NCBI GenBank assembly: GCA_026995555.1
Contig: JALWOJ010000139.1
Coordinates: forward strand, 18,098 to 55,558
Direction: 5' to 3'
From: Acidilobaceae archaeon
GTDB taxonomy: Archaea > Thermoproteota > Thermoprotei_A > Sulfolobales > Acidilobaceae
DNA: 37,461 nt
This document shows positions 12,420 to 31,354 of this stretch, in pieces. The notes beneath the pieces are model-generated. The model ran no database searches. It worked only from the letters and a program-made list of their open reading frames with translations, and was not told where the DNA came from. The first letter of the stretch is position 1. Each line of letters opens with the position of its first letter. Made by a program: the position numbers and the translations under genes.

Positions 12420-12809
12420 TCATACAAGACCAGGAATGCTAAAGAGTTCAGCAAAGTCCGCATGAATGTCCTGAAACCCTATGAACACCTTTATGGGAAG
12501 CTTAGTTATCGACTCTGCGAGAGTCAGCATTTTGTATGAAAAGGGATCTGGCTTTTCTGGAGTGAATATTAAGATTAACCTCAGTTCATAGTAAGCTCCG
12601 TAGAGTCTCTCCTCTGCTATCTTTTTTAGCAGCCACTCCCTCAAATCCCTCACAAGCTTAATTATATTGATGAACGTTCTCCAGCTGACTTTAGGAGCTC
12701 TCACGGCTAGGGTAGACATTCCCTTACATACAACAAGCATGAATGTGTCATCTCTAAGACTTTCTGGCTCCTCCCCTATAAGAAACTCGAAGCAGGTCAT
12801 CCTTAGCAA
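12420..12809 (-). CDS. Hypothetical protein (129 aa), translationally coupled to the upstream ATPase-like gene
   Basis: Clean ORF overlapping the end of the 12803-13990 ORF by 7 nt on the same strand. No recognised family. Confidence 0.6.
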   Translation of the reverse strand: MLRMTCFEFLIGEEPESLRDDTFMLVVCKGMSTLAVRAPKVSWRTFINIIKLVRDLREWLLKKIAEERLYGAYYELRLILIFTPEKPDPFSYKMLTLAESITKLPIKVFIGFQDIHADFAELFSIPGLV

Positions 12810-13990
12810 AACCTCTGGGGGCCGAGCTCTATCTCTCTTAAGATCTGAGTCCTTTCAAGGTATATTTCCTCTGAGGGGGCTAAAAACTCGTCCTCGTTAA
12901 AGCCTCTAGCAAACTGAACTGAGTTCAAGGAGCCATCTTCCTTAAGCCTGTAGACGGATATGATGTTTGGATCTAGAGCCAGTGACTCCTCCTCGCGACT
13001 CACATAATTGCCTCTCAAGTATAGGAGGGCCAGATTATTTATCTTGTATAGGAAGTAATCGCTATCCGTGGAAATGAGTAGGAACTTGTTATGCTCCTTA
13101 ACTTTAGCGGCAATAAGCTGTGCAAGCCTCAAGATCCGTTCTGGATGCAGACACAGCTCAGGGTTTTCAATAACGATAGTCTTTGGGCTGGGAAGTAAAA
13201 GGGGCAAGGCGATTGGAAGGACGGAGGCTATTGGACAATAGGTCTTGCTTAGATCAATGTTTTCTTCCTCATCTGTAACTACTCCTTCCTCCCATAATGA
13301 TCTCAACTCTAGAGATTCCATCAATCTTTTCAGCCAGTAGTCTTCGACTTTTGAAGCTCTTCGCAGTGCCGTCTCGATAACACGTCTTTGCTCGTTTACT
13401 ATCATCATGAATCTCGGCAACAGCTCTGGAACTTTGAGTAGTCTGCCCAAGAGAACCCTTTCATAGCCTAAAAGAAGGGGATCGAATATCTCAAGGGCTT
13501 TCGCCTTAATCCCAACCTTAGACCTGAGGTTTTCTTCACTAGTCTTGATAAACATTTTTAGACCTTCGTCTGAGATGTTAATTCTTATGCCGATACCTTC
13601 AGGATCCAGCACTATCTCTGAATAGGCAGTTGAGGTTTCGACCATAATTTTTGCCGCCAAAGAACCTTTGTCTATAAGCGAACTTGGAAAGTCACTTATG
13701 ACCTCGGGGCCGAGTGTTTCAACCATCCTTTCAGCAGATTTAACGTAATCCTCCTCATCCCTAGCCCTTTCTGTGCTGAAGAGAGAGACGTAAAGAGGGT
13801 TGAGAGTTCTAAGAGTTAGCCAAAAACTTCTAAGGATAAGTGATTTTCTTTTCCAGCTTCTCCCAAGGAGCAGAGTTAACGGTTTTACAATCATCTCAAA
13901 ATTATTAATACCCTTTAGTCCCTTTGCCCTAAAGATGTAATACAAAGGCCCCTTCCTCCTAGGGCATTTATTTCTATACATGATCTTCAT
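12803..13990 (-). CDS. ABC/AAA_21-like (OLD/RecF-type) ATPase with degenerate P-loop
   Basis: LKGINNFEMIVKPLTLLLGRSWKRKSLILRSFW (degenerate Walker A), KTIVIENPELCLHPERILRLAQLIA (Walker B/D-loop like IEEPELHLHP), NKFLLISTDSDYFLYKINNL (switch region like ITTHSEYLL). Confidence 0.7.
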   Translation of the reverse strand: MKIMYRNKCPRRKGPLYYIFRAKGLKGINNFEMIVKPLTLLLGRSWKRKSLILRSFWLTLRTLNPLYVSLFSTERARDEEDYVKSAERMVETLGPEVISDFPSSLIDKGSLAAKIMVETSTAYSEIVLDPEGIGIRINISDEGLKMFIKTSEENLRSKVGIKAKALEIFDPLLLGYERVLLGRLLKVPELLPRFMMIVNEQRRVIETALRRASKVEDYWLKRLMESLELRSLWEEGVVTDEEENIDLSKTYCPIASVLPIALPLLLPSPKTIVIENPELCLHPERILRLAQLIAAKVKEHNKFLLISTDSDYFLYKINNLALLYLRGNYVSREEESLALDPNIISVYRLKEDGSLNSVQFARGFNEDEFLAPSEEIYLERTQILREIELGPQRFC

Positions 13991-14047: not shown

Positions 14048-14596
14048 TTGCCTTTGGAAGTAGAGATGAAAATACCTGTAGACTGTTCAAAGTTTGAATA
14101 CCTTCTAGAACAAATAAGTTACAAGAAGCCTAGGATAGGTAGACAGGTCGTCGAGGAGGATCATTATTTTGCCCACCCGTGCAGGGACTTCTCTATAACA
14201 GACGAAGTTCTTAGAGTGAGATATTCAGATAATGGTATAACATTGACTTACAAAGGCCCTAGGATCGAGGTTGGTGATGCTTTCAAAACCAGAGAGGAGA
14301 TAGAGGTTAAGCTAAAGGAGGGCGATATAAAGTCTCTCCTCGAAAAGCTTGGCTTCAAGGAAATAGCCGTCATAAGGAAGAGAAGGACTTACATTGAGGT
14401 TGAAGATTTTATCGTGACATTTGATGATGTCGAAGATCTTGGTTGCTTCGTTGAAATAGAGTCTACAGGACAGCCAGACCCCACCTTCTTAGCAGATCTA
14501 ATGTTTGAGAGAAGAGAGTACACTCCGATTAAAGAGACGTATCTCGAATTGTACCTAAAGAAGAAAAAGGCTGAGGAGATCTTTAAGGATGTCTAA
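14048..14596 (+). CDS. CYTH-domain protein (class IV adenylate cyclase CyaB / thiamine-triphosphatase-like)
   Basis: Begins MPLEVEMKIPVD (ExExK motif). Also QVVEEDHYFAHPCRDF, LRVRYSDNGITLTYKGP, TREEIEVKL, KRRTYIEVEDFIVTFDDVEDLGCFVEIE. TTG start. Confidence 0.85.
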   Translation: MPLEVEMKIPVDCSKFEYLLEQISYKKPRIGRQVVEEDHYFAHPCRDFSITDEVLRVRYSDNGITLTYKGPRIEVGDAFKTREEIEVKLKEGDIKSLLEKLGFKEIAVIRKRRTYIEVEDFIVTFDDVEDLGCFVEIESTGQPDPTFLADLMFERREYTPIKETYLELYLKKKKAEEIFKDV

Positions 14597-16190: not shown

Positions 16191-17003
16191 GTGGGCTTTC
16201 GCTTGGCGTTCTCAATGACTGCCACCCTTGTCACAGCTCTTCCTCTAACATTTGTTATCTTCTATTCAATCAGAAATCCTCTCGTATTTCTCTCCTTGCC
16301 CCTCGCTTTTATTATCTATTATTTTGTTGCAGAGAGGATCTTGGAGGGTGCAGCAAGCTTTGTTGTGAGATTTTTGGAATTAGGTGATAAGCTCTTGGAT
16401 TTTACTGAGGGTTTTGATGACTTTAATCCTGATCAGGATCTTGAAGATTCTTCTTTGGACTTTCCAGATGAGTACTTATTGTATGTTTGGGGGCTTGTTG
16501 GTAGTCTTCAGAACGAGATCATTTCCAATAGAAAATATAACATATATGTGATAGTTGTCGATGATGGTTATCCAGTTGAAATGTACCCCTATCCTTCAAA
16601 CGAGCAAAGTTCTATAGATCTCGACGATGAGACTTTCTCTGAGGGAAAGGCGTTCAAGGCTGAAATAAGGGATGAGAGAACTCTCTTCGTTTACATACCT
16701 TTAGATGTTTTTGAGAAGTTGGGCAAGGCCTGCGAAAAGGGTGATGGGGAGAAGATAAGAATTAATGATGAGAAAGAGGCGCTAAGCCTCTTTATGCTAG
16801 CCAAGGTACTAGCCTCTGCTCTAGGTAATGAAGATGAAAGGTTGAACTCCTATATAGCCTATAAAACGATTTTAAAGCTTAAGAGAAAAGGACTTCTAAT
16901 TGTTGATGAAAACCTTCTTGAGAACCTTCCCCTGGGTGACTCAAGGACAAAGCTACTCATAAAAAGGCAGGTCAGTGAAGAGCTTGGGTTAAAGAACATT
17001 TAA
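16191..17003 (+). CDS. Hypothetical protein with two N-terminal transmembrane segments
   Basis: 270-aa ORF with a hydrophobic hairpin (LAFSMTATLVTALPLTFVIFYSI / PLVFLSLPLAFIIYYFVA) and an acidic soluble part. The start codon is uncertain. No recognised family. Confidence 0.65.
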   Translation: MGFRLAFSMTATLVTALPLTFVIFYSIRNPLVFLSLPLAFIIYYFVAERILEGAASFVVRFLELGDKLLDFTEGFDDFNPDQDLEDSSLDFPDEYLLYVWGLVGSLQNEIISNRKYNIYVIVVDDGYPVEMYPYPSNEQSSIDLDDETFSEGKAFKAEIRDERTLFVYIPLDVFEKLGKACEKGDGEKIRINDEKEALSLFMLAKVLASALGNEDERLNSYIAYKTILKLKRKGLLIVDENLLENLPLGDSRTKLLIKRQVSEELGLKNI

Positions 17004-17398: not shown

Positions 17399-18445
17399 AT
17401 GCCTGAACCTCTCAGCATGGAATTAGAGCTGGCTGCCTTTAAGCTTGTAAAAGATGTAATGAAGGTAAAGAAAAACGAAGAAGTAGTCATTACCATAGAT
17501 ACTGGAGGTGACTGGCAAGTAGCCGAAGCTATCGCTAGAGCTTCCTCTGTTCTAGGTGCTAAACCTCTAGTGGCTTGGTATCAGATGCCTCCAGGAGTCG
17601 GAAAAGCTTCCGATCCATACATCCCACTGAATGCACTAAAGGCCCTTCTGTCGAATGCAGATGTTTGGATAGAGCTAAACAAATCCTGGCTTCTCTATTC
17701 TACCCCTTATGAAGAAGCTCTGAAAAAAGGCAAGGTGCGTTATATGTGCTTAGTTGGTATGGATGCTGAAATGGCCGTTAGAACTATTGGTAAGGTTGAT
17801 GTGAAGCTTCTTTATGAGTTCCAAAGGAAGCTTGCGGAAATTACAAGGAGAGCTAAACACATGAGAATAACCTCGCCTGCTGGTATGGATGTAGAGTTTG
17901 AAAATGATCCTCAAAGACCAATATTTGTTGAAGGAGAAGTTTCTGGTCCTGGAGAATACATGTTGTTTGGCCAGGTTGATTGGGCACCTATCGAGGATAG
18001 CATAAATGGAATTATAGTATTTGATGGTTCAGTATGGCCTCCTCAAGAGTTAGGTTTGCTTAAAAATCCTATTAAGCTGTATGTAAAGGAAGGGACAGTT
18101 GTTAAAATAGAGGGCGGTCCCGAGGCTAAGATATTTGAAAGTTGGCTCAAGTCCTTTAAAGATCCGAACATGTTTAAGATAGCGCATATATCTTATGGTT
18201 GTAATCCAGGTGCTAGACTCACAGGCAACATTCTTGAAGATGAGAGAGTCTGGGGAGCAGTTGAGTGGGGACTAGGATTTCAATCAGCAGGATTTAAGGG
18301 AAAGGTAGGTCCAGCGGCCTCTCATACAGATGGAATATGTCTATCTCCTACTGTTTGGGCGGATGGAGAAAAAATTATAGAGGATGGAGAGTTTGTTCAC
18401 CCAGAACTAATTGACTTAGCTAAAAAACTTAGGTATGGTAAATAA
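17399..18445 (+). CDS. M29-like aminopeptidase / NicX (2,5-dihydroxypyridine dioxygenase)-related metalloenzyme
   Basis: KNEEVVITIDTGGDWQVAEAIARASSVLGAKPLVAWY...GVGKASDPYIPLNALKALLSNADVWIELNKSWLLYS...FKIAHISYGCNPGARLTGNILEDERVWGAVEWGLG...AASHTDGICLSPTVWADGEKIIEDGEF. Confidence 0.75.
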   Translation: MPEPLSMELELAAFKLVKDVMKVKKNEEVVITIDTGGDWQVAEAIARASSVLGAKPLVAWYQMPPGVGKASDPYIPLNALKALLSNADVWIELNKSWLLYSTPYEEALKKGKVRYMCLVGMDAEMAVRTIGKVDVKLLYEFQRKLAEITRRAKHMRITSPAGMDVEFENDPQRPIFVEGEVSGPGEYMLFGQVDWAPIEDSINGIIVFDGSVWPPQELGLLKNPIKLYVKEGTVVKIEGGPEAKIFESWLKSFKDPNMFKIAHISYGCNPGARLTGNILEDERVWGAVEWGLGFQSAGFKGKVGPAASHTDGICLSPTVWADGEKIIEDGEFVHPELIDLAKKLRYGK

Positions 18446-29893: not shown

Positions 29894-31354
29894 CTATCCC
29901 TTTGTCACTCCGAGGGGCCTAAGTCTTACAACGAGCCTTCCTATGCCAACAGCGTGTGCCACCTGGGCAACCTTATCCACATCCTTATAAGCCTCTGGCA
30001 TCTCCTCGACAACTGTCGCTCTGTTGCTTGCTCTCAAGTAAATGCCCTTTCTCTCCATCTCCTCGACAACCTCGCTATACCTCTTAGTTCTCTTAGCTTG
30101 GGCTCTGCTCATCCACCTGCCAGCTCCATGAGGTGCAGTAAACCAGCTCTTCGCCCCTTCAGGAGACCCTACAAGGACATAGCTGGCGGTTCCCATGCTT
30201 CCCGGGATCAGGACTGGCTGACCGACGTCTCTATATGCCTTTGGTATATCGGGATGTCCTGGTGGGAAGGCTCTGGTGGCTCCCTTTCTGTGGACAATGA
30301 GCTTCCTCCTCTTTCCATCAACTTCATGCTCCTCAAACTTAGCAATGTTGTGAGCAACGTCATACACTATTCTCATTCCAAGCTGGTCTGGATCTTTATG
30401 GAACACGGCCCTAAAGCTCTCTCTGGTCCAGTGGGTTATCAACTGCCTGTTTGTCCATGCGAAGTTTGCAGCTGACGCCATAGCTTTTATGTAGTTTTGA
30501 GCCTCCTTTGTTGAATACGGAACGCTAGCTAGCTCTCTGTCTGGAGGCCTTATGCCATACTTCCTCATGGCCCTCTCCATCACAATTAGATAGTCGCTTG
30601 CAACTTGATGCCCCAGTCCTCTGCTCCCCGTGTGAACCATGACAACTACCTGTCCCTCCTCTATTCCAAAAGCTTTGGCCACCTTTTCGTCGAAGATCTT
30701 GTCAACTACCTGAACCTCAAGGAAGTGATTTCCACTTCCCAACGTTCCCAGCTGTTCCGATCCTCTCCTCTTCGCAGTTTGACTCACAAATGAAGGATCT
30801 GCTAGACTCCAACTTCCTCTCTCCTCTATGTATTCTGGATCGTCTGCCCATGCATAGCCTTTATTAACTGCCCACATGACTCCCTCGGAAAGAACCTTGT
30901 CAAGCTCTGAGGTCGTTAACTTCAGTTTTCCTCCTCTTCCAAGCCCACTGGGAACGTTTCTGTAAATGGTGTCTATCAGCTCCTTTATCTTAGGTTTTAC
31001 CTCCTCAACCCTCAGGTCAGTTCTTATCAATCTAACTCCACAGTTAATATCGTAGCCAACGCCTCCAGGACTTATCACTCCGTCCTCGTCTATCGCCATA
31101 GCGGCTACTCCTCCTATAGGGAAGCCGTATCCCTGATGCCCATCTGGCATGACTAAGCTATACTTCTGTATTCCCTGAAGGCAGGCGACGTTGGCGGATT
31201 GAACTAGAGTCATGTCACCCTTCATTTTTTCTAAGAGAAAGTCATCGGCATAAATTATGCTCGGAACCCTCATACAACTCTTAGCTCCCTTAGGTATCAT
31301 CCATACGTACTTATCTACTCTTCTAAGTTCTACGTGATGGCTCATGTTCCACAC
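29894..31354 (-). CDS. rtcB: RNA-splicing ligase RtcB (no intein)
   Basis: MPDGHQGYGFPIGGVAAMAIDEDGVISPGGVGYDINCGVRLIRT, GTLGSGNHFLEVQVV, MVHTGSRGLGHQV, RKGATRAFPPGHPD, GQPVLIPGSMGTASYVLVG, WFTAPHGAGRWMSRAQAKR. Confidence 0.97.
   Translation of the reverse strand: MWNMSHHVELRRVDKYVWMIPKGAKSCMRVPSIIYADDFLLEKMKGDMTLVQSANVACLQGIQKYSLVMPDGHQGYGFPIGGVAAMAIDEDGVISPGGVGYDINCGVRLIRTDLRVEEVKPKIKELIDTIYRNVPSGLGRGGKLKLTTSELDKVLSEGVMWAVNKGYAWADDPEYIEERGSWSLADPSFVSQTAKRRGSEQLGTLGSGNHFLEVQVVDKIFDEKVAKAFGIEEGQVVVMVHTGSRGLGHQVASDYLIVMERAMRKYGIRPPDRELASVPYSTKEAQNYIKAMASAANFAWTNRQLITHWTRESFRAVFHKDPDQLGMRIVYDVAHNIAKFEEHEVDGKRRKLIVHRKGATRAFPPGHPDIPKAYRDVGQPVLIPGSMGTASYVLVGSPEGAKSWFTAPHGAGRWMSRAQAKRTKRYSEVVEEMERKGIYLRASNRATVVEEMPEAYKDVDKVAQVAHAVGIGRLVVRLRPLGVTKG

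Follow-up and report, generated by a model that had tools for sequence, protein, structure and literature searches.

Does an OLD/ABC-type ATPase gene with a broken Walker A motif belong to a decaying module, or has its product been retained for a task other than ATP hydrolysis? This question is raised by a two-gene unit in the window, i.e. the whole 37,461-nucleotide stretch of DNA from an Acidilobaceae archaeon analysed here, the source assembly of which is a MAG (1.5 Mb, 221 contigs). WonAB and PD-T4-4 have been described as pairs of an ATPase sensor and a nuclease effector (PMC12137116; PMC10952713). For defence ATPases an ATP cycle is usually taken to be essential, and single motif mutations in WonAB abolish protection, WonA K34A, R182A, E300A and H333A each doing so (PMC12137116). 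Our analysis suggests, with a probability of about 0.6, that the window pair is genus-specific and joins a small partner to an OLD/ABC-type pseudo-ATPase that does not hydrolyse ATP, having a scaffold or regulatory role and stemming from a defence-type ATPase sensor. If true, the selection of such a relative, devoid of the motifs yet accompanied by a conserved partner, would mean that the scaffold is valuable by itself, and the pair would provide a natural case to separate sensing and scaffolding from catalysis in this ATPase family.

Gene boundaries and genomic context

The minus strand of the window contains an ATPase-like open reading frame at 12803-13990, in which we found all the motifs reported in the preliminary description (GRSWKRKS, IENPELCLHPE, STDSDY), and directly downstream of it a small partner frame listed at 12420-12809. 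Both were compared to one separately assembled genome of the same genus, here called the congener, both assemblies being fragmented. The congener ATPase begins at a TTG equivalent to window position 13945, a GGAGG-type site being located approximately 8 nt upstream of this TTG in both genomes, and the congener partner is a 126-aa open reading frame beginning at an ATG equivalent to window position 12800. Because of these matching congener starts and the GGAGG-type site we prefer the downstream starts; the true starts of both window genes are thus probably further downstream than listed, resulting in a pseudo-ATPase of 380 aa from TTG (12803..13945, minus strand; a longer frame from the ATG at 13990 is possible) and a small partner of 126 aa from ATG (12420..12800, minus strand; the alternative start is the TTG at 12809). 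The partner had originally been described as a 129-aa protein with a 7-nt overlap; the small downstream frame exists, but the overlap depends on choosing the TTG and turns into a 2-nt gap from the ATG. With the revised starts, the two genes are separated by these 2 nt in the window, and in the congener they share the 4 nt ATGA. Translational coupling is therefore still plausible, and they are probably co-transcribed.

The neighbours of the pair are housekeeping genes, i.e. Thi4, CYTH, GNAT and PNP. The CYTH gene (14048-14596) has moved in this genus; in numerous other family members its neighbour is the orthologue of window 29894-31354. This differing gene context leaves no syntenic empty site from which the insertion could be dated. 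Two sizeable open reading frames at 16191-17003 and 17399-18445 show no Pfam match. Beside the congener partner gene, a small frame and a PIN-domain-like frame (L002:143-856) resemble, read by eye, a VapBC-type toxin-antitoxin pair.

Conservation and purifying selection

Both genes recur in the congener with their order unchanged, adjoining the same CYTH and PNP genes, and the pair was found in these two genomes only, both of one genus. Between the two species the ATPase shows 59% and the partner 75% identity compared to 75-84% for the neighbouring genes, the ATPase evolving faster than these and the partner being as conserved as the neighbouring PNP gene. The differences at the three codon positions amount to.318/.200/.597 for the ATPase and.206/.103/.532 for the partner, and to.204/.096/.542 for PNP and.132/.044/.555 for CYTH. 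Four-fold sites differ by 58-64% and are saturated; binomial tests of the second positions against this neutral level, treating sites as independent and resting on one species pair, yielded 6e-69 for the ATPase and 4e-29 for the partner. Maximum-likelihood dN/dS is approximately 0.12 for the ATPase and 0.07 for the partner, with dS being saturated. Neither gene carries a frameshift or stop in either species. Judged from these substitution patterns, both genes are under strong purifying selection. Second positions differ at 20% of codons in the ATPase and at 10% in the partner, well under the neutral level, which together with the intact frames argues against the decay that the preliminary description had kept as an option. 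Within the ATPase, a C-terminal segment (GFNEDEF..SEEI..ER) is conserved between window and congener and parallels GI.EDEF.KVAEEL of intact relatives.

Four motifs of the ATPase are degenerate in both species

We tabulated the motifs of 26 ATPases, i.e. those of window, congener and 24 others. GxxxxGKS and the switch His are intact in 24/24 of the others, and their Walker B reads EEPE in 23 and EDPE in one. The Walker A motif, GRSWKRKS in the window (13841..13864, minus strand) and GKSWKSKS in the congener, keeps the first Gly and the Lys-Ser, the sixth-position Gly being replaced by Arg (codon AGA) or Ser, respectively. Preceding Walker B, the ABC-signature-like motif is degenerate as well (YCPIASVLP, 13214..13240, minus strand; congener SCPVASILS), showing CPIAS/CPVAS compared to PSGIRE, SSGQQE or SSMVSE in most relatives. 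Walker B (IVIENPELCLHPE, 13139..13177, minus strand) keeps its first acid, and the position of the catalytic Glu is occupied by Asn in the window and Ser in the congener, resulting in ENPE and ESPE instead of EEPE. In the switch (H-loop) region LISTDSDY (13055..13078, minus strand) the His is replaced by Asp (TDS), in the congener by Asn (TNS).

The loss of the P-loop Gly via an AGA codon and the absence of an obvious switch His had been noticed before, and both hold; the original list of defects was incomplete, as the catalytic Glu and the signature-like motif are lost too. The P-loop change extends to the orthologue, the congener also lacking the sixth Gly. We considered an assembly or sequencing error as the origin of the motif defects and ruled it out, since all four recur in the congener, which was assembled separately; the same finding rules out a recent hit. 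At three degenerate motif positions the residues of window and congener differ from each other, the adjoining residues being common to both, as is expected where catalysis no longer constrains a site.

Loss of the sixth Walker A Gly in P-loop proteins usually cripples nucleotide binding. With this Gly, the catalytic Glu, the switch His and the signature all being gone, the window ATPase has probably lost ATP hydrolysis, and probably nucleotide binding too, although the remaining Walker A Lys and Ser and first Walker B acid may still allow binding of ATP.

Relationship to intact archaeal ATPase-partner pairs

The window ATPase reaches no Pfam or NCBIfam cut-off. Its Walker B region matches the PADLOC models NsnB (9.5e-11) and PD-T4-4_A (5.9e-9), which are the two nearest models, and hhalign of the window-type ATPase against nine intact archaeal ATPases yields a full-length match (probability 99.4%, E 6.8e-22), suggesting that it is a very divergent relative of this intact family. 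The AF2 model, of modest confidence (pLDDT 63.5), matches SMC/Rad50 heads, OLD, Septu PtuA, Gabija GajA and retron ATPases, Foldseek E-values being approximately 1e-6 to 1e-5 to chains of retron Eco8, SMC, Rad50 and OLD. Profile and fold similarity both place the protein in the OLD/ABC-type superfamily. The proposed OLD/AAA_21-type ATPase with a conserved small partner is borne out by the pair being common to the congener and by the profile match to the intact family, and the PADLOC and hhalign matches support an ancestry in a defence-type family. In the tree, window and congener ATPases form a clade on a long stem (2.27), precluding a firm placement.

Relatives of the ATPase, searched with a two-sequence profile, occur in 31 of the 214 genomes of the order, window genome and congener among them. 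Intact relatives usually have a gene of approximately 120-145 aa directly downstream, and the alignment of these intact archaeal partners reads HAD..EET..K..D..H..C. Starting from the intact partners, an ATPase-like frame is found directly upstream at 23 of the 28 loci inspected, some of which are the same as those from the ATPase search; 22 of these frames have an intact Walker A, and the one at L158 is short with no Walker A found. The other five loci are truncated, fragmented, poorly matched or unpaired by the distance rule, among them L185, in which an intact ATPase frame overlaps the partner. Of 398 genomes sampled from the whole phylum, the intact-partner profile detects this family in 20, and the partners tested match no Pfam or PADLOC model. 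The comparison thereby revealed pairs of an ATPase and a partner of approximately 125 aa across Thermoproteota (L018-L031, L152-L163, L172-L183), which seem to form an archaeal branch of the WonAB/PD-T4-4 kind that has not been catalogued. These intact pairs (L018-L031, L152-L183) share with the window the gene order, the full-length ATPase family and the C-terminal EDEF motif, but they keep GxxxxGKS, EEPEAHLHP, THS and the HAD..EET..K..D..H..C partner, none of which is present in the window pair.

The locus L164:99-1797 is a fragmented copy of an intact-type module with ATPase pieces in several frames, which keep GRNSAGKS and EEPEAHLHP, the last piece being in one frame with the partner; its broken frame with preserved motifs contrasts with the intact frames and dead motifs of the window pair. 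We found no copy of the pair in viral contigs and none of the ATPase in phage records, and a plasmid search using the partner of an intact relative as query gave no match.

The small partner

As described initially, the partner belongs to no recognised family, staying below Pfam and NCBIfam cut-offs, and comparison to PDB sequences, PHROGs, NCBIfam and PADLOC gave nothing convincing, as did comparison of the window region to Rfam. Its position directly downstream of the ATPase is that of the WonAB/PD-T4-4 modules in both species. Membership of the window partner in the archaeal HAD..EET family gained no support beyond background: hhalign against the intact partner family gave a probability of 1.2, in hmmsearch it had a background score and ranked among 749 decoy ORFs, a larger 25-sequence partner profile scored it no better than background, and in a permutation test its score was within the range of unrelated control chunks, that of the congener being only just above. 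Membership of this nuclease-type family is hence not demonstrable by sequence, and searches outside the genus found no relatives, the window partner being seen in this genus only. A two-sequence AF2 model, likewise of modest confidence (pLDDT 60.6), shows a b-b-b-a-b-a-b-a order; weak fold matches in the PDB include Mus81-Eme1, the nickase Nt.BspD6I and Kpn2I, none below E 0.001, and one match in a viral library (5e-4) is a phage HTH_XRE-domain protein. Gene position and fold order make homology to the nuclease partners possible. The window partner does not have the conserved catalytic-type residues of the intact partners and, if it is homologous to them, these residues would have been lost in the partner as well.

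Discussion

OLD/ABC-type ATPases function as dimers whose ATP sites are composite. The predicted docking site of WonB is formed by the dimerised C-terminal extensions of WonA (PMC12137116). By analogy, the pseudo-ATPase would still dimerise and hold the partner via its conserved C-terminal part. With this segment well kept and the Glu, the His, the signature and the Walker A Gly lost, the protein would not cycle ATP and would be nucleotide-independent or at most nucleotide-binding. The complex would then serve constitutively as a scaffold, binding or regulatory unit and not as a nuclease triggered by ATP. The pair probably derives from, or shares an ancestor with, an archaeal version of the WonAB/PD-T4-4 modules of ATPase sensor and small nuclease. 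More tentatively, and with the odds somewhat against it, a defence-type ATPase-nuclease pair may have turned fully non-enzymatic, with a dead ATPase and a dead or replaced nuclease, and been selected in one genus for a novel role in binding or regulation.

The kept Walker A Lys-Ser and first Gly, the defence ATPases being the two nearest PADLOC models and the patchy distribution of relatives in order (ATPase profile) and phylum (intact-partner profile) would also fit a nucleotide-dependent defence switch, in which a small effector is controlled during virus infection, either by ATP that is bound but not classically hydrolysed or through an unusual active site. We regard this as unlikely, since residue kinds essential in WonA, i.e. 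the Walker B Glu and the H-loop His, are gone in both species (PMC12137116), the partner is without the conserved residues of intact partners and the neighbours are housekeeping genes. The pair might instead have been adopted for housekeeping, such as the chromosome or cell-cycle role reported for Cran1, a class 5 OLD protein of Sulfolobales which is, like the window protein, an archaeal OLD-type ATPase and sets a precedent for a non-defence role (PMC12796447). Strong purifying selection and a partner as conserved as PNP would agree with this; however, restriction to one genus is unlike a core function, and Cran1 differs, by its description, in needing its active ATPase, in a fused TOPRIM domain, absent in the window, and in a membrane-protein neighbour (PMC12796447), making such an adoption rather improbable. 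A module on its way to a pseudogene could account for the faster evolution of the ATPase and its four lost motifs, but is very hard to reconcile with the intact frames in both species, with second positions far below neutral (6e-69 for the ATPase) and with the truly broken copy L164, which keeps its motifs in a fragmented frame. The scaffold or regulatory pair thus remains our preferred reading.

Among known systems, WonAB of Vibrio cholerae resembles the window pair in being a two-gene unit of an OLD-type ABC ATPase followed by a small protein, but WonA has, and requires, intact motifs, its partner WonB is a PD-(D/E)xK nuclease and block of phage has been shown (PMC12137116). The PADLOC model PD-T4-4_A matches the intact archaeal L003, L004 and L006 at 1e-33 to 5e-37 compared to 6e-9 for the window, and unlike the window pair PD-T4-4 has active-site motifs and a nuclease partner (PMC9519451, PMC10952713). 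OLD, Gabija GajA, Septu PtuA and PARIS AriA share the ATPase superfamily and predicted fold, whereas the window pair has no TOPRIM, HNH or helicase part and has lost the catalysis motifs. In bacterial prophage contigs (L047-L062), genes for ATPases similar to those of the archaeal pairs precede genes for small proteins that have an ELKG-type PD-(D/E)xK core, three of the four bacterial partners scanned matching PADLOC PDC-M29B; between the archaeal intact and the bacterial partners there is a weak core match (hhalign probability 27, E 7e-4).
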